Notes under the pieces: model-generated
Databases searched by the model: none
Told to the model about the DNA's origin: nothing
What the model saw: only the letters and a program-made list of their open reading frames with translations
Origin: Treponema sp.
GTDB lineage: Bacteria; Spirochaetota; Spirochaetia; Treponematales; Breznakiellaceae
Assembly (NCBI GenBank): GCA_009777995.1
Contig: WRKT01000005.1
Location: forward strand, 62,001 to 126,000
Reading direction: 5' to 3'
Length of the DNA stretch: 64,000 nt
Shown: piece after piece, positions 53,711-63,634 of the stretch
How the letters are laid out: each line of letters begins with the position of its first letter
Numbering within the stretch: position 1 is the stretch's first letter
Program-made: the position numbers and the translations under genes

Positions 53711-53745
53711 GTTTCACGTGAAACTACTTTGTTTCACGTGAAACA
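53711..53745. other. Two parS centromere sites
   Basis: GTTTCACGTGAAAC occurs at 53711-53724 and again at 53731-53744; the second is flanked by T and A, giving the perfect 16-bp parS TGTTTCACGTGAAACA at 53730-53745. Spacing is 20 bp centre to centre, and dnaA is about 12 kb away. The second lies inside the last codons of the WYL gene. ParB should load here. Confidence 0.85.
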
Positions 53746-54797
53746 TTTTGAGCCATTTCCTTAATTTCCCTTATCCAGTCATCGACCAGCCTTTTTGGCT
53801 TCCTCGGAATGGCATATTGCCCGCGGGAAAGGACCCACTCAAGAACCTTATCATACTGTGTACTTTTAAATTCCAAGCAAACTCCGTTTCCGGAAACCCC
53901 TGTTTCGGGGGCACCGTTTCCGGAAGTATTCTTCCTCTTAATTTTCCTTATTTTCTGGTCTTCTGCCCATTGCCGCTCTGTGGCATAAAGTTCAGCCTCT
54001 CCAAAGCAGTCGATAGCAAAATGATACTCTTCCATACCGATAAAGACACCGAAGTAACTGCCCCCTGTAAGGTTAGTATAACTATAGTTTGGCGGAAGGG
54101 AAAAACGATCTTTTGTAAGTAGGGCGTTTTTCATGCGGGAAAGGGAAAAAACCCGAACCGATTTTCGTTCTTCTGAAAATCCATAGAGGAACCAGGCTCC
54201 TGAGTCAAAAAGTAATTGATACGGCCGTACCCGTCTGCTTTTATGATCCTCATCCCATCTTCCCCTATAATCAAAAGTGATAACTCGGTTCTCCTTCAGC
54301 CCTGCTATAATGGCTTCCCATATTTCATTCTGTACCTTTGCTGCAGCGGTTTTTGGAACCACAATCCGGTTTTCAAGCCAGTCACGATTTCCGCTTGCAG
54401 CAAGGGGGGCCGTGATGCTTTCAAGGAGACTTATAGAGGCATTATATAGAGGCGTTTCATGATAGAGGGAGAGGATGCTCTTTGCCATACCAAGGGCCAG
54501 CATGTTTTCTGCCCCCGTAAAGCCTGCAGGGATTCTGTAAGTTTTTTCGGTATAGTAATACCCGCGATGCAGCGCACTGTATTTGATTGGAGCACGAAAA
54601 GTATCACGCAGGAAATCAATGTCCCTTATAATGGTAGAAATGCTTACCTTTCCCCAATCACCCTGAAACATTTCCTTAAGTGTCCTTGTATTCGGATACT
54701 TCCCCGAGGCAATTTCCTCGTCTATTCGGTAGATTCTTGGCAGAGCCGCCTTGGTAATGTTTAACCTTGCAGGCTTTTTTTCCTGTTCCATTTCCAT
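53724..54797 (-). CDS. YafY-like WYL-domain transcription regulator
   Basis: A 357-residue regulator. The N-terminal winged helix has VSISTIIRDIDFLRD (HTH) and the WYL domain (about 180-290) contains VRPYQLLFDSGAWFLYGF and VFSLSRM, with the Trp-Tyr-Leu-like patch. The C-terminal part is longer than usual and carries a Gly-rich linker (SGNGAPETGVSGNG). Its last residues NVSRETK are encoded by the parS site. WYL regulators sense nucleotides or DNA damage and often control defence loci. Confidence 0.82.
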   Translation of the reverse strand: MEMEQEKKPARLNITKAALPRIYRIDEEIASGKYPNTRTLKEMFQGDWGKVSISTIIRDIDFLRDTFRAPIKYSALHRGYYYTEKTYRIPAGFTGAENMLALGMAKSILSLYHETPLYNASISLLESITAPLAASGNRDWLENRIVVPKTAAAKVQNEIWEAIIAGLKENRVITFDYRGRWDEDHKSRRVRPYQLLFDSGAWFLYGFSEERKSVRVFSLSRMKNALLTKDRFSLPPNYSYTNLTGGSYFGVFIGMEEYHFAIDCFGEAELYATERQWAEDQKIRKIKRKNTSGNGAPETGVSGNGVCLEFKSTQYDKVLEWVLSRGQYAIPRKPKRLVDDWIREIKEMAQNVSRETK

Positions 54798-56024: not shown

Positions 56025-57200
56025 ATGGCTAAAGATATACTTCAAGCGTCAAAGGTTTTACTCGAACAATGCTCAAGTACAATAAGAAAATTTGAAGAAA
56101 ACTATAAACAAACAGGTGAAAAGTATAATATTTTTAAGATCACCAATATAACCACTGATGAAAGGAAAATTTGCAAGGTAATTGAGGATTTACTTAATCC
56201 GGAAGGGAGTCATTATCAAGGTGGTCTATTTTTAGAATACTTTATTGAAATGGTAAATGAGAAGTCACTTTCACCGTTTGATGTAATTTTTGATAAGGCT
56301 TTGGTAAAAAACGAATATCATACCGACATTGGCCGTATTGACATAGTGATTTCAGATGGAAATATTTTTATTCCAATTGAAGTTAAAATTAATGCAGGGG
56401 ATCAGGAAAAACAGGTTTCTCGTTATACGGAATATTCGAGGTTAAGAAATAAGAATAGAAAAATTCCGGTTATCTATTTAACGAAAGAAGGTAATTCTCC
56501 TTCAAACGCTAAGATAGGAGAATATATCTCAATATCATGGAAAAATGATATTTTAAGCTGGTTACATGAGTGTCTAAAATATACAGACGATGCGAAAATT
56601 AAATCTGTTTTTGAAGTTTTAAAGCAGTTAATTGCATCTATAAGATCATTTTGTGGTATATCGGAGGACGAAAAAATGGAGAAAGAGATACAAAAACTGG
56701 TTACAGAGTCGGATGCTAAATTAAAAGCGGCATTTGAAATAAAACAGGCGCTTGAATCAATTTTTGATGATTATAAAAAAAATTCCCTGGTATTGTTTCA
56801 AACTAAAATTTTAGAACAAGTAAAAAAGGAATTTCTTGATGCATTTTGTTGTTATGAGTTAGATGGAAAATGGGATTATATGTCTATACCTATAAAGAAT
56901 GGAAGATATTCATTTGGGGTTACTTATGATTGGAAGGTAATATATTTATATTGTGAAATAAAAGGAAAAAAAGAAACAAAAGAAGTTAAAGCTCTTTATG
57001 AAAAAATGAATGATCTATTTGTACCATCCGATAGAGAATGGGAAGGTTATGTGTGGGGAACTGATAGATTTACATATCCTCGTTTTACTGATGTTGACCC
57101 AAAATTATATTATTATGAGTTGCACAAAGAGTATTCGGAAAATACAATGGAAGTCGTCAATCTCATTATAAGCTTTGCAAAGGAATTGGATAACGTGTAA
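56025..57200 (+). CDS. PD-(D/E)XK nuclease superfamily protein
   Basis: A 391-residue protein with the nuclease core GRIDIVISDGNIFIPIEVKINAGDQEKQVSRY split here for length: Asp in GRID near residue 103, then the EVK of IPIEVK near residue 119 and the Gln in KQVSRY. The first part (20-90) is helical, the end (270-391) mixed. PDDEXK_4-type proteins of this kind often belong to defence systems. The gene is AT-rich, on the opposite strand to its neighbours, and flanked by two copies of an LRR gene end, which suggests insertion. Confidence 0.75.
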   Translation: MAKDILQASKVLLEQCSSTIRKFEENYKQTGEKYNIFKITNITTDERKICKVIEDLLNPEGSHYQGGLFLEYFIEMVNEKSLSPFDVIFDKALVKNEYHTDIGRIDIVISDGNIFIPIEVKINAGDQEKQVSRYTEYSRLRNKNRKIPVIYLTKEGNSPSNAKIGEYISISWKNDILSWLHECLKYTDDAKIKSVFEVLKQLIASIRSFCGISEDEKMEKEIQKLVTESDAKLKAAFEIKQALESIFDDYKKNSLVLFQTKILEQVKKEFLDAFCCYELDGKWDYMSIPIKNGRYSFGVTYDWKVIYLYCEIKGKKETKEVKALYEKMNDLFVPSDREWEGYVWGTDRFTYPRFTDVDPKLYYYELHKEYSENTMEVVNLIISFAKELDNV

Positions 57201-58152: not shown

Positions 58153-59193
58153 CTAAACTCTTCCAAATCCAATCTTTTCAGTTGTACTTATACTGCTTTG
58201 ACTTTCCTCTATGCAGTATTGGACCAAGGTGGCCATAGGCAGTACATCATTGTTCAAAACCATGTTTACTTCTGCCTTTCGGGCAATGTTCTCGATTTGC
58301 CCGCCGGACAGTTCATATTTATTCGACAAATCCCGGCATAATTCCTCCGGTAGTTGCGGCATTAGCATTTTCCATATTTCATTGCGGCTTTCTGCGGTAG
58401 GCTTATCAAAATTGATTCGGTACAGGAAACGGCGTTCAAAGGCAGTGTCCATATTCCGGGCTAAATTCGTGGTGGCAATTAAAATACCATTAAGGTTTTC
58501 TATCTCTTGTAAAATTATGTTCTGGACATTGTTTTCAGACTTATCTATTGCCCTATTAAACTGTCCCAGTTCTGTCCTCTTATTAATCACAGAGTCAGAT
58601 TCGTTAAAAAGAAGTATGGGAGTAATTTCAGATTTCTCTACCAGGCTACGATAGGAATCAAAAATCTTTTTAATGTGCTTTTCGTCTGCTCCCCATTCCC
58701 TATTTTTTGTTTGAGAAATATCTACAGTCATTATATGACGCCTTGTTTGGCGTGCAATCTGATAGGCAGTTTCTGTTTTACCGGTTCCCGGGCCGCCGCT
58801 GAAAAGGCAGGCAAAGCCCTTCCGCATTCCTTTATTATCCAGTCTGTTTATGACTTTACTATAGTTTTCTTCAGATAAAAGAGAGTTAAGCATCGTAATT
58901 GCCTGAGATTCTCTTTGATTATAGAACATTTTTTTAGGCCTTATTTTATCGTGGAGAATCAGCTCATCTTTTTCCGGAGAGCCCGAGGAATCATTGTCTG
59001 AAAATAAAATATAGTAAAAATAATCCACTTCCTTGATAATACTTGCTGCGATTATGACTATTGATAAAATAGCCATCGATTTAATAAAATCTGCAGTAAA
59101 TCTAAATATGATGAAATACAAAAAAATAATTGTAGCAGTCAACAGAATAAACTGAGTAATGAATGTTATTCTTTTCCTGTGCGTTTCTTTCAT
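58153..59193 (-). CDS. Membrane-anchored AAA ATPase, short paralogue
   Basis: A 346-residue protein with two membrane helices at about 10-32 and 38-58 followed by an AAA domain closely related to the one in the gene at 61905-63611. Walker A is SGGPGTGKTE, Walker B LLFNESDS, sensor 1 IATTN, and the arginine-finger region AFERRFLYR. The pore-loop segment reads NREWGADEK against SKWVGESEK in the long paralogue, so the substrate-gripping aromatic-hydrophobic pair is altered. The N-terminal helices replace a soluble domain. It lies at the end of the accessory cluster. Confidence 0.8.
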   Translation of the reverse strand: MKETHRKRITFITQFILLTATIIFLYFIIFRFTADFIKSMAILSIVIIAASIIKEVDYFYYILFSDNDSSGSPEKDELILHDKIRPKKMFYNQRESQAITMLNSLLSEENYSKVINRLDNKGMRKGFACLFSGGPGTGKTETAYQIARQTRRHIMTVDISQTKNREWGADEKHIKKIFDSYRSLVEKSEITPILLFNESDSVINKRTELGQFNRAIDKSENNVQNIILQEIENLNGILIATTNLARNMDTAFERRFLYRINFDKPTAESRNEIWKMLMPQLPEELCRDLSNKYELSGGQIENIARKAEVNMVLNNDVLPMATLVQYCIEESQSSISTTEKIGFGRV

Positions 59194-59252: not shown

Positions 59253-60092
59253 TCAGATATCTAAAACAAACTTACTATAATGAACAGCAGAATTCAAGTA
59301 ATATTCATAATTTTCAGGGTCTCCATATATGCACCAAACCATAAGTGCAAGGCTGTTTAAGGCCAGGAAAGAGTTTAAACGTAAAAATTCTTGTTCTGTG
59401 GGCACTCTTTTCAGATATTGATGAAGGCACCATACAGGATCAACATTCTCGAAGCCTTGATGTAATGTCGCAATTGCTATATCAAGGAGCGGATCAGCCA
59501 TACCTGCATATTCCCAGTCTAATATTTTTATGCTGCCATCAGGTAGACGAAAAAAGTTAGGTATGCATGCATCCCCGTGACAAAGAACACGCGGAACCTT
59601 TAATTTATTTAGCATAGCTTGAATTGATTTAATTTGATCTCTGAAATTTGCTAATTCGTTTAATTCTTTTGTTTCTTTGTTGCAGTGAGCAATATACTTG
59701 TTCATATTATCTATAATGTCATACTCATACTCTATTGAAATACCACTTTCATGAACCTTACGAATATGATCAAGTAAGTCAATCATGTCAGATTCATCAT
59801 AACTCAAGGATTTGCTTTTCTCTAGAAATTTTGTTATTTTTATGCCATTATCGAAATAAACCAGTTCGTCTGTAATATTGAAAGATTTTAAAGAATTATA
59901 TGCAGCTTTCTCTCTCTTCCAGTCCATTATTGACATATCGTTTAATTTTTTTATAACGTAATTTTGACCTTTTATGTTAAATAAGTAAACATGATTTGAA
60001 CCCTCTAGATTTATAAGTTTGCTTACTTCTGTACATTTTACTTTAAATATGTGTTCTATTTTATGTTTTAAATCCTGCTGAATTTTATTCAT
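59253..60092 (-). CDS. Choline/aminoglycoside kinase-like phosphotransferase (LicA type)
   Basis: A 279-residue kinase of the APH/choline-kinase fold. The catalytic loop HGDACIPNF near residue 180 and the metal-binding ILDWEYAGMADPLLDIA near residue 200 are clear; the N-terminal NYVIKKL holds the ATP-binding Lys. Choline kinases of the LicA type supply phosphocholine for surface decoration. The start at 60092 follows AAGGAG by seven bases; the open frame runs 48 codons further up with no likely start. Substrate is inferred. Confidence 0.75.
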   Translation of the reverse strand: MNKIQQDLKHKIEHIFKVKCTEVSKLINLEGSNHVYLFNIKGQNYVIKKLNDMSIMDWKREKAAYNSLKSFNITDELVYFDNGIKITKFLEKSKSLSYDESDMIDLLDHIRKVHESGISIEYEYDIIDNMNKYIAHCNKETKELNELANFRDQIKSIQAMLNKLKVPRVLCHGDACIPNFFRLPDGSIKILDWEYAGMADPLLDIAIATLHQGFENVDPVWCLHQYLKRVPTEQEFLRLNSFLALNSLALMVWCIYGDPENYEYYLNSAVHYSKFVLDI

Positions 60093-60222
60093 TTGTATGC
60101 TCCTTAAAAATTTTTGGCCTAGTTTTGTAAATATAACAGAATGATCTGTCAGGAAATGCCGGAGATTTATTATGATGATATATTGGTATTTTGTTTCATT
60201 CGTAGATACTTTCAGGGAAATA

Positions 60223-60573
60223 CTATGATAACTCATTCCGTTTATTTGAAAAGAATGGTATACCAGTATCTATAATATCTGCTAATGCAAATGCTAATAC
60301 TTGTTTTAACTCTTCTTCCGAATTATATTTATAATACATGTTTCCCATGAGACTGCTTAAGTTAAAGCCTAGGACATCTTTATGATTTTGGTTTATAATA
60401 AGAAAAATCATAAAACCTTTATTTTTAAATCCGTCTCTAGTAAAATATACTTTTTCTTTAAACAATGAATTACCCCTAGAAAATGAACAGCGCCTTTGCA
60501 CAAAACCCAGTTCTTTAAGGGGATTTCCAATTATTTCTCGTAGAAGTTTAGGAAAATTATATGGTTCTGCCAT
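60223..60573 (-). CDS. Small hypothetical protein of the AAA-exonuclease-FHIPEP operon
   Basis: A 116-residue soluble protein: PLKELGFVQRRCSFSRGNSLFKEKVYFTRDG, then a strand-rich centre (GFMIFLIINQN) and a helical end. The start of the sequence resembles DUF4304-like proteins (L..LGF...G..F.R), but only weakly. It begins 3 bp after the FHIPEP gene stop, with GAGGT as ribosome site, so it is the fourth gene of that operon. Function unknown. Confidence 0.55.
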   Translation of the reverse strand: MAEPYNFPKLLREIIGNPLKELGFVQRRCSFSRGNSLFKEKVYFTRDGFKNKGFMIFLIINQNHKDVLGFNLSSLMGNMYYKYNSEEELKQVLAFALADIIDTGIPFFSNKRNELS

Positions 60574-60576
60574 TTT

Positions 60577-61395
60577 CTACCTCATTACTAATCGATCCTT
60601 TTGACTTTCTTTCGTAACAGCATTTGCAACTGCAAAACCTACTAAGGCGGATGGTATCATGAAAAGCATTCCGCTACTAATTGCTAGAGGCAGATAAGTT
60701 GTAATGGCATCGAGAAGAACAATTTCTCTAATTAAATGATCTATCAGAGTTCCGGCAATAATAATGATCAGTGTAATGAAAATTCCCACTTTTGCATTAC
60801 CTGTTATAAATTTACTTGCACCATCTAATGAACTATAAAAGTCAGACTCTTGTTGAAGCGCTTCCTTGCGCAAAACAGCCTCGTTTTGATCAATAATGCC
60901 GGAGCTGAACTCTGCATCAATAGCCATCTGCTTACCCGGAAGGATGTCCAAGGTAAACCGTGCAGCTACCTCCACTACTCTGGTAATACCTTTGAGTATA
61001 ATTTTCACAAAAATCGTGGCGATTACAAGATAGATAATTAAACCTACCACCAAATATTCTTTATTAGGCCCTACTAGCAGTGATGAAATATAGCGTATGA
61101 GCCACCCATCAAAATCAGCACCCTTAATCAGAATAAGCCGTGCAGCACATACATTCACTATCATACAGAAAACTGTAGATACTAAAGCTATACTTGGAAG
61201 TAAAGTAAAACTAGTTGCTTTCTTGATGCATAACACAATAGACAGAATTATTAAGGCAATCAAAAAATTTAATCCTATGAGGATGTCCAATGCTAAAGTA
61301 GGAATTGGTATTAATATCAATAGAATGATAATAATCACCATAATAGCTAAAAAACCATGTCTAAAAAAACCTTGGATAGCATCAAAACCTTTCAT
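60577..61395 (-). CDS. Stand-alone FlhA/FHIPEP membrane domain protein
   Basis: A 272-residue membrane protein matching only the N-terminal half of FlhA/SctV, the export-gate proteins of flagella and type III secretion. Clear parallels: LIPIPTLALDILIGLNFLIALIIL, SFTLLPSIALVSTVF, and above all RVVEVAARFTLDILPGKQMAIDAEFSSGII near residue 140-170, with the conserved Asp and Arg residues of the export gate. About eight helices are seen. The 350-residue cytoplasmic domain is missing; the protein ends in VTKESQKDRLVMR. The gene sits 3 bp after an exonuclease gene, not in a flagellar operon. Confidence 0.78.
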   Translation of the reverse strand: MKGFDAIQGFFRHGFLAIMVIIIILLILIPIPTLALDILIGLNFLIALIILSIVLCIKKATSFTLLPSIALVSTVFCMIVNVCAARLILIKGADFDGWLIRYISSLLVGPNKEYLVVGLIIYLVIATIFVKIILKGITRVVEVAARFTLDILPGKQMAIDAEFSSGIIDQNEAVLRKEALQQESDFYSSLDGASKFITGNAKVGIFITLIIIIAGTLIDHLIREIVLLDAITTYLPLAISSGMLFMIPSALVGFAVANAVTKESQKDRLVMR

Positions 61396-61398
61396 CTA

Positions 61399-61908
61399 TC
61401 ACTCCTTACCAACCTTCTCCCTTGCTAATAGCACGATCTTCCCGCAAGTCAGGGCGTCATCAAGGGCGTTGTGGGCATTGTAGACAATGCCGAAATGGCT
61501 TGCAAGGGATGTAAGGCTATGGGATTTTAACTCAGGCCAAGTTCTTCGAGCAAGAGTACAGGTACAGAAATATGGTAACTCCGGAACAGGCAAATTATAC
61601 CACTTAAGAACTGCCTTAAGAACATTGATATCAAACACTGCATTATGAGCTGCTAAGGTCATATTGCCAATGAAAGGCTTTATGGAGCTGTCCCAAATAT
61701 CTGCGAAGCTTGGCGCATCTCTAACATCATCTACTGTAAGGCCATGAATCTCTGTGAAGTCAGGGCGAATGTATAACTTGGGCGGCCTTATAAGAGAATA
61801 GTAGGTGTCTGTCACCTCTCCATTCTCAAACTTTACAAGGCCGACCGAGCATGCACTTTCTCTTGAATACTTAGCTGTTTCAAAGTCGATCGCAATAAAA
61901 TCTTTCAA
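61399..61908 (-). CDS. DEDDh 3'-5' exonuclease (DnaQ-like)
   Basis: A 169-residue exonuclease of the DnaQ/epsilon superfamily. All motifs are present: Exo I DFETAKYSRE (Asp/Glu), Exo II AHNAVFDINVLK (Asp near residue 97), Exo III HNALDDALTC (His and Asp near residue 150). Without polymerase partner it is the size of an independent RNase/DNase. Its ATG overlaps the AAA gene's stop by 4 bp and the FHIPEP gene begins 3 bp later. Confidence 0.88.
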   Translation of the reverse strand: MKDFIAIDFETAKYSRESACSVGLVKFENGEVTDTYYSLIRPPKLYIRPDFTEIHGLTVDDVRDAPSFADIWDSSIKPFIGNMTLAAHNAVFDINVLKAVLKWYNLPVPELPYFCTCTLARRTWPELKSHSLTSLASHFGIVYNAHNALDDALTCGKIVLLAREKVGKE

Positions 61909-63611
61909 GGCATAAATCCTATACTTTTTTGGATTGAGTTAAAACTGTTTTCAACTTCGTCTTTGCAATACTGTGTCAGGTTTTCCAGGATAAGGTCTTT
62001 GCCTGTTAGAATTGCATCAACTTCTATCTTGCGGGTGATGTTTTCGATCTGCCCGCCCGATAAGTCAAACTTACTAGATAATTCGATAAGCTGCTCCTCG
62101 GACAAATCGGGAAGCAACGAGTTCCATATACCCTTACGGATTTCAATGCCGGGGCGGTCGAAGGCAATCTTATAAAGGAAGCGGCGCTCGAAGGCGTTGT
62201 CCATGTTCTGCGTTAAGTTTGTAGTGGCAATCATGATACCGCAGAGGGTTTCCATTTCTGAAAGGATGATATTCTGGACAGTGTTTTCCATTTGATCAAC
62301 GGCACGGCTTGCAGCTGAGAATTCCTTCCGTTTACCGATTATTGCATCGGCTTCATTGAAAAGAAGAATCGGTGTTATTTCGGAATTTTCCACGGCATTC
62401 CGATATGTGTCAAAGATTTCTTTTATTCTCTTTTCGCTTTCACCGACCCACTTACTTTTTATCCGAGAAATGTCGACCATCATAATGTTACGCTTCGTTT
62501 CCCTTGCAATCTGATAGGCAGTTTCCGTTTTCCCTGTCCCGGGAGCTCCCGAAAAGAGGCAGGCAAATCCTTTTCTCATTCCTTTACCGTCAAGCCGCTC
62601 TTGGATCTTCGAGTAGTTTTCTTGCATGAGGAGGGAGGAGAGGGTTTCTATCTCCTTTGTTTCCCTTGAATTGTAGAACATTTTCTTTGCTTTAATTGTG
62701 TCAAACAGAACGAGATTTTTCTTATAGTTTTTACTCTTCTTTACGTTTATCTCTGAAAGCAACTCCTTCTTTGCTATGTCAGTAAGCTTCCATGATTCAT
62801 TGTTGACAAAACCATCATCGTTATTAAACTCGATAAATTTGTTTTCGATAAGGTTATGAGTCCCTGCAGATAAATCGCTTGTAATTTCTTTAAGCAAAAA
62901 TTTATTGTCATAAATCGAGCCAAAATCATGGTTTCCTATATGATCGTCGTTGTTGTTTCCAAACAAATGACAGAAGCAGGCGAGCAAGACCAGGTCATCT
63001 TCATGGAAGTTATAGCTCATTATCTTTTTGCAAAACTCGAGCTGCATATTTTCTTTGATAAGGTTAAGCAGCTCTCCTGTTAAGGCTTCACTTGTTAGTT
63101 CGCCGTTACTCTTCTCTTCGAATAGTTCCTCAAGAATTACAAAAAATTTATTTATGTCCAATTTATCCTTGTTCATAGGAGTGTACTCGTTGTTTTTTCT
63201 AAGTGAATCCTTAACTTCAAAGGGAATTCGATATGAAACGCTGCCATTGCCTCTACTGCATCGGATCAGCTTTTTCTTTTCCAGCTCTTCACATTCGGTC
63301 ATATACTTTACCATTCTGATAGGGTTACAATGCCCCGAATCGGCTATTTGCTTGATATGGATATTATTATCATCCCCCTGTGCTAAAAAGTGAGAGAAGA
63401 GAACCGCTTGCAAGGGGCTTACTCCAAGCTTTTTTGTCAGGTAATCCAGGTGCCGCTTCCCCTTGGGGTTATAATTTTCCAGCCCTGTGCTTGCCGTAAT
63501 TTCGTGGATCTTCTCAAGATGATCAAGGATATCCATGTCCTTAAAAGGCTTTTCTTTCTCGGCTCTTGTCCTTGCATTCGTCTTTCTGGCTTCTTTGGCA
63601 GTTTTATTCAT
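61905..63611 (-). CDS. AAA ATPase with N-terminal regulatory region, long paralogue
   Basis: A 568-residue protein. The N-terminal 300 residues form a helical, winged-helix-like module (LDYLTKKLGVSPLQAVLFSHFL, then HIKQIADSGHCNPIRMVKYMTECEELEKKKLI). The AAA domain (about 345-560) has Walker A SGAPGTGKTE, pore loop SKWVGESEKRIKEIF, Walker B LLFNEADAI, sensor IATTN and AFERRFLYK. Such single-domain AAA proteins unfold or remodel targets. The start at 63611 is preferred over 63617, given AAAGG seven bases before it. First gene of the exonuclease-FHIPEP operon. Confidence 0.82.
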   Translation of the reverse strand: MNKTAKEARKTNARTRAEKEKPFKDMDILDHLEKIHEITASTGLENYNPKGKRHLDYLTKKLGVSPLQAVLFSHFLAQGDDNNIHIKQIADSGHCNPIRMVKYMTECEELEKKKLIRCSRGNGSVSYRIPFEVKDSLRKNNEYTPMNKDKLDINKFFVILEELFEEKSNGELTSEALTGELLNLIKENMQLEFCKKIMSYNFHEDDLVLLACFCHLFGNNNDDHIGNHDFGSIYDNKFLLKEITSDLSAGTHNLIENKFIEFNNDDGFVNNESWKLTDIAKKELLSEINVKKSKNYKKNLVLFDTIKAKKMFYNSRETKEIETLSSLLMQENYSKIQERLDGKGMRKGFACLFSGAPGTGKTETAYQIARETKRNIMMVDISRIKSKWVGESEKRIKEIFDTYRNAVENSEITPILLFNEADAIIGKRKEFSAASRAVDQMENTVQNIILSEMETLCGIMIATTNLTQNMDNAFERRFLYKIAFDRPGIEIRKGIWNSLLPDLSEEQLIELSSKFDLSGGQIENITRKIEVDAILTGKDLILENLTQYCKDEVENSFNSIQKSIGFMP

Positions 63612-63634
63612 TTTCATACCTTTAATGTAGCATT

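Follow-up and report, generated by a model that had tools for sequence, protein, structure and literature searches.

Orphan FlhA membrane domains associated with a AAA ATPase, a DEDDh exonuclease and a WYL regulator in accessory islands of Spirochaetota

A four-gene operon in an accessory region of a Treponema genome

The window analysed here, a stretch of 64,000 nucleotides from a Treponema sp. draft genome (G000; 2.6 Mb, 86.6% complete), carries on its minus strand an operon of four genes encoding a AAA ATPase, a DEDDh exonuclease, a FHIPEP membrane protein and a small protein. The ATPase and exonuclease genes overlap by 4 bp, and gaps of 3 bp each separate the exonuclease from the FHIPEP gene and the FHIPEP gene from that of the small protein, which confirms the packing described in an earlier note on this DNA. 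The genes of the operon and its surroundings are the following:

61905..63617, minus strand: AAA ATPase of 570 aa (AAA570), with a classical AAA domain behind two apparent winged-helix-like N-terminal domains (Pfam AAA, 2.4e-24)
61399..61908, minus strand: DEDDh (DnaQ-like) 3'-5' exonuclease of 169 aa, TTG start (Pfam RNase_T, 8.9e-23)
60577..61395, minus strand: orphan FHIPEP protein of 272 aa, with FlhA TM1-6 and the FHIPEP loop (Pfam FHIPEP, 3.9e-73)
60223..60573, minus strand: small protein of 116 aa, nothing significant in Pfam
59253..60236, minus strand: APH/choline-kinase-like protein (Pfam APH, 1e-10)
58153..59193, minus strand: AAA paralogue anchored in the membrane, with two TM segments at the N-terminus and, after them, a AAA domain that shares 60% identity with that of AAA570
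56025..57200, plus strand: PDDEXK_4 nuclease, a context gene (PADLOC candidate defence family PDC-S26)
53724..54797, minus strand: WYL-domain regulator, a context gene; regulators of this type are repeatedly found close to AAA570, DEDDh and orphan FHIPEP genes

The listed ATPase reading frame begins at 63617, and position 63611, taken earlier as its start, corresponds to the second Met. As listed, the APH-like gene starts 14 bp inside the small gene, an internal Met at residue 49 being a possible alternative start. The four genes are contiguous, as had been proposed, but the transcription unit probably does not end with them and extends to the APH-like kinase and the AAA paralogue. The region is AT-rich (GC 0.34-0.41 over 56-64 kb) and of accessory type, again in agreement with the first reading of this DNA, the surroundings including Fic, WYL, LRR, PDDEXK_4 (PDC-S26), HicAB, BrnA and tyrosine phosphatase genes. 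Among named relatives, those nearest to the ATPase come from spirochaetes, and several are Treponema or Spirochaetaceae MAGs.

The exonuclease has all the catalytic residues that define a DEDDh enzyme (D8, E10, D93, H146 and D151). The FHIPEP protein covers positions 1-243 of the 657 of the model and is 46-47% identical, across the shared part, to the complete FlhA that the same genome encodes on another contig. It had been described as the isolated membrane half of FlhA; the cytoplasmic domain is indeed absent, but the protein stops after TM6, so that TM7-8 are missing as well.

Recurrence of the ATPase, exonuclease and regulator genes

AAA570 proteins are widely found in the window's spirochaete family and in Bacteroidales, plasmids included. 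Across 134 non-redundant AAA570 loci, the gene found most often in the same operon is DEDDh (8 loci), followed by WYL (7 loci). When a DEDDh gene is found within +-8 genes of AAA570 it lies directly beside it in 10 of 23 cases (P=0.002), and a WYL gene does so in 13 of 28 (P=2e-4), in both cases against a null of the available positions; the adjacent genes are mostly on the same strand. A WYL-DEDDh pair overlapping by 4 bp is seen in Bacteroidales and spirochaetes (L178, L186, L211 and L146) and appears to be a conserved two-gene unit.

We then looked from the side of the membrane protein. Orphans were sought with the FHIPEP profile alone, giving a survey of 33 loci in 31 genomes, in which three seed loci were already known from the window and the AAA570 searches. 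AAA570, DEDDh or WYL genes were present within 1.5 kb at 15 of the 33 loci (12/30 when the three known loci are left out) and within 5 kb at 25. At full-length flhA the corresponding count within 1.5 kb was 0/40 (Fisher P=7e-7), these loci being a lenient control and a poor model of accessory islands, as they sit in flagellar operons. Taken one partner at a time at 1.5 kb, the comparison with flhA gave P=0.001 for AAA570, P=0.001 for DEDDh and P=0.04 for WYL. It is highly probable that a repurposed FlhA membrane domain is associated with AAA570, DEDDh and WYL.

The earlier note had treated the four genes as one set that might recur elsewhere. ATPase, DEDDh and orphan FHIPEP are found together in the distant genomes G000, G007 and G401, and pairs of them in many more, but gene order and orientation differ between loci. 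The set reads WYL-FHIPEP-DEDDh-AAA570 in G007 and DEDDh-x-FHIPEP-x-x-AAA570-WYL in G401, which belongs to a different family; G602 carries DEDDh-FHIPEP-WYL plus two GmrSD genes, and G395, from a third family, DEDDh-FHIPEP with a MBL nuclease, a M48 peptidase and a AAA protein. The 116-aa protein is absent from all others of the 200 genomes of the family, and we found no recurrence of the exact four-gene set beyond the window. The varying order and a small protein unique to the window rule out a fixed four-gene system.

Could these be independent accessory genes that pile up in the same defence-like islands without any joint function? Each gene is also found alone and in variable order, the small protein is unique, and a second DEDDh peak lies 6 genes away from AAA570. 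Further, 8 of the 33 orphans have no partner at all within 5 kb, and AAA570 and DEDDh are mostly found without FHIPEP (in Bacteroidales, FHIPEP accompanied 0 of 50 AAA570 carriers), both of which count against a joint module. Against mere accumulation, the adjacency of DEDDh and WYL to AAA570, mostly on the same strand, exceeds the within-island expectation, three-part sets recur in separate families, and one locus (L229) has a nuclease fused to the ATPase. We consider the accumulation of unrelated genes unlikely, though it deserves serious weight, and favour a modular system whose parts can be exchanged.

The ATPase itself has the AAA fold, Walker motifs and aromatic pore loop of a classical AAA protein translocase, with Walker A at residue 357, the pore loop KWVGESEK and the Walker B LLFNEAD. 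Walker B has NE instead of DE (residues 416-424 of the window ATPase), and this is invariant in 12/12 aligned members. An AF2 model built from a 12-row alignment (pLDDT 80, pTM 0.50) gave the 26S Rpt, Msp1, Vps4 and FtsH ATPases as best Foldseek matches, and the order of secondary-structure elements suggests that the N-terminus consists of two winged-helix-like domains. The family is modular: the N-terminus contains LRR in 15 of the 134 loci and a MBL-RMMBL nuclease in one, the fused gene of L229, which has an adjoining WYL gene, and some forms of the ATPase are joined to TM helices. In the fusion (L229 4656-7649) the nuclease is RNase J/CPSF-like, precedes a winged-helix AAA ATPase and has the WYL gene downstream. 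The window paralogue at 58153-59193, with two TM segments ahead of a AAA domain close to that of AAA570, is an instance of an Msp1-like architecture in a bacterium.

This resemblance raises a second alternative, in which the operon would be a membrane quality-control or toxin-antitoxin-like unit, a harmful FHIPEP protein being restrained or extracted by the AAA proteins in the manner of Msp1 and the exonuclease being incidental. It would fit a AAA domain of the Msp1/Vps4/26S translocase type with its W-x-G-E pore loop, the Msp1-like N-terminal membrane anchor of the paralogue and the toxin-antitoxin genes nearby, but 22 of the 33 orphan loci have no AAA570 within 5 kb, and DEDDh and WYL co-occur equally often. 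We regard this explanation as improbable.

Orphan FHIPEP proteins and the residues of the FlhA proton path

FHIPEP profile searches detected proteins of about 260 aa restricted to TM1-6 in the window's family and in at least two further families of Spirochaetota. Unbroken orphans are mostly 224-291 aa long; there are also broken copies, and the FHIPEP loop is missing from several. We excluded from the orphan set the copy of G073, a tandem duplicate lying next to flhA. Where annotated, plasmid and phage matches to the window FHIPEP are ordinary FlhA/SctV. The AF2 model of the window orphan has a pLDDT of 84; Foldseek returned no significant match to it, a negative that carries no weight, since 12dv and 36hw, full-length FlhA structures with a sequence match, were absent from the hits as well. 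Two unusual architectures were seen among related genes. At L051 (1709-2833) an orphan adjoining a tyrosine phosphatase gene has an extra C-terminal domain of ~100 aa to which no family was assigned, and at L269 (G594) a 485-aa gene beside DEDDh encodes a FHIPEP-like part followed by a second membrane region.

The proton path of Salmonella FlhA has been mapped by cryo-EM and mutagenesis (PMC13308203; also PMC8179193). N137, D249 and Q254 are essential (PMC13308203), while R147, R154, D158, D199 and K203 belong to the charged inner ring or its vicinity (PMC13308203; also PMC8179193). We compared these positions, numbered by alignment to the Salmonella FlhA PDB sequence, between 26 alignable orphans and 26 full-length spirochaete FlhA. 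In the full-length proteins Q137, D249 and Q254 are each present in 26/26. In the orphans D249 is found in 0/26, Q254 in 1/26 and N or Q at position 137 in 1/26, the window orphan having F, S and M at 137, 249 and 254. Charge is kept elsewhere (R94 in 22/26, D158 in 19/26, R147 in 17/26), and most residues of the inner charged ring are retained. The R85-D208 pair could not be used as a test of the orphans, since spirochaete FlhA itself lacks it. We infer from these substitutions that the orphan may form a ring or platform in the membrane for which the former proton path is no longer in use.

The same residues bear on whether the orphan could be a working export gate, or a FlhA-type ion channel, in flagellar or type III effector export. 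The relationship to FHIPEP is clear and most charged inner-ring residues remain, but D249, Q254 and N/Q137 are lost, TM7-8 and the substrate-docking cytoplasmic domain are absent, no further export genes lie nearby and an intact FlhA is encoded elsewhere in the genome. A working gate or channel is therefore very improbable. The exported-effector system that the earlier note had offered beside defence is likewise unlikely, since the locus has no other export genes alongside it and the protein lacks D249, Q254 and N/Q137, all essential for export.

That the orphan is a decaying copy of the flhA present in this genome, as the broken copies among other orphans and the G073 duplicate might suggest, is hardly tenable and is rejected on account of an open reading frame without stops, a length of ~260 aa conserved across families, a location away from flagellar genes and a tree in which the window orphan groups with orphans of another genus (G156, G181 and G160; support 91/99) and away from its own FlhA. 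Decayed flhA copies beside flagellar genes, which had been named beforehand as an outcome that would overturn the proposal, are thus not what the orphans are. The same tree contains a second orphan clade (G180/G168/G166; 100/100), with the placement of the remainder, on long branches, unsure.

The host genome also encodes the converse protein, a FlhA cytoplasmic domain of 458 aa without a membrane domain (L005 9535-10911, corresponding to contig C3:77535-78911), whose gene sits between one for a trypsin-like protease and lepA, upstream of the latter. Its presence seems not to track that of the orphan membrane domain. A split FlhA composed of the two was judged unlikely from match counts, because G198 and G199 have second FHIPEP matches without an orphan membrane domain and G160 and G181 show the reverse.

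A candidate modular system and its relation to known machines

Genes found in the islands include PDDEXK_4 (PDC-S26), GmrSD, a UvrD helicase-nuclease, HicAB and BrnA, and AAA570 shares Bacteroidales islands with DEDDh, WYL and GmrSD. In two phyla, paired GmrSD (DUF262) genes are found repeatedly in the islands that hold DEDDh, AAA570 and WYL (L160, L148, L210 and L262). The proximity to defence genes that the earlier note had asked about is borne out, with PDC-S26-type PDDEXK, GmrSD, WYL and toxin-antitoxin pairs representing candidate or known families. Defence appears to be the best-supported functional class, as judged from context, because occurrence is patchy, copies are broken, and toxin-antitoxin and nuclease genes, GmrSD pairs, UvrD-nuclease and PDC-S26 are neighbours.

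We propose, with a probability of roughly 0.55 for the statement as a whole, that Spirochaetota have a modular accessory system with a putative role in defence, and that this operon represents one version of it. Its parts would be a winged-helix AAA remodeller, a DEDDh exonuclease, a usually nearby WYL regulator and a FlhA-derived six-helix membrane protein. Winged helices, or LRR in the fused forms, might allow the ATPase to sense a trigger derived from phage or nucleic acid, after which it would remodel partner proteins; the exonuclease would break down nucleic acid, and a FlhA-type membrane ring could act as the platform or pore that carries the response to the envelope. More tentatively, a new anti-phage system may have a winged-helix/LRR AAA ATPase and DEDDh at its core, with the rings, their proton path dead, serving specifically as its membrane effector or platform. 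These rings would be the second flagellar part in defence after Zorya, and their mechanism would do without ion flow along the old path.

The operon corresponds to no system of PADLOC-DB 2023 or NCBIfam, and the open-access full-text literature contained nothing on FHIPEP or FlhA in defence, nor on orphan FlhA. We rate this as a new kind of module with a reused flagellar part, provisionally so, given that the search covered open-access papers and, for defence systems, PADLOC-DB 2023 and NCBIfam. FlhA membrane domains that share the loss of proton-relay residues are widespread outside the flagellum, previously unremarked in the libraries searched, and tied to a nuclease, ATPase and regulator module. 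As naturally occurring variants, they allow the structural role of the FlhA ring to be told apart from its proton-conducting one.

With FlhA/SctV the orphan shares TM1-6, the FHIPEP loop, R94 and most inner-ring charges. The FlhA export gate, however, has eight TM helices and a cytoplasmic nonamer domain, of which the orphan lacks TM7-8 and the cytoplasmic part; FlhA keeps residues 137, 249 and 254, whereas the orphan has lost them and lies outside export loci, with no flagellar or T3SS export genes among the searched neighbours of the window operon. AAA570 shares with the Msp1/ATAD1-type ATPases its fold and W-x-G-E pore loop, and the window paralogue shares their membrane anchoring, but AAA570 is soluble, has tandem winged-helix-like domains and lies in nuclease-rich islands. 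Its AAA domain also matches models of IetA (IteA), the ATPase that works with the protease IetS in IetAS, at 88 bits; it scores 82 against an NCBIfam equivalog cut-off of 510 bits, its N-terminal domains differ from those of IetA, and no gene of the operon encodes a protease that could stand for the subtilisin-like IetS.

The closest parallel in kind is Zorya, an anti-phage system in which ZorAB, MotAB-like proteins of the flagellar stator type, act with helicase or nuclease partners (PMC11890865). In both cases a membrane part of the flagellar machine is reused with nuclease or ATPase partners. The proteins are entirely different, with no match to a Zor model among the operon and its near neighbours, and ZorAB retain their ion-transduction residues (PMC11890865) whereas the orphan FHIPEP proteins have lost theirs. 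Recruitment of flagellar export parts to bacterial immunity, as of stator parts in Zorya, becomes testable with these loci, and the authors of the Zorya study have suggested that more such adaptations may turn up (PMC11890865).
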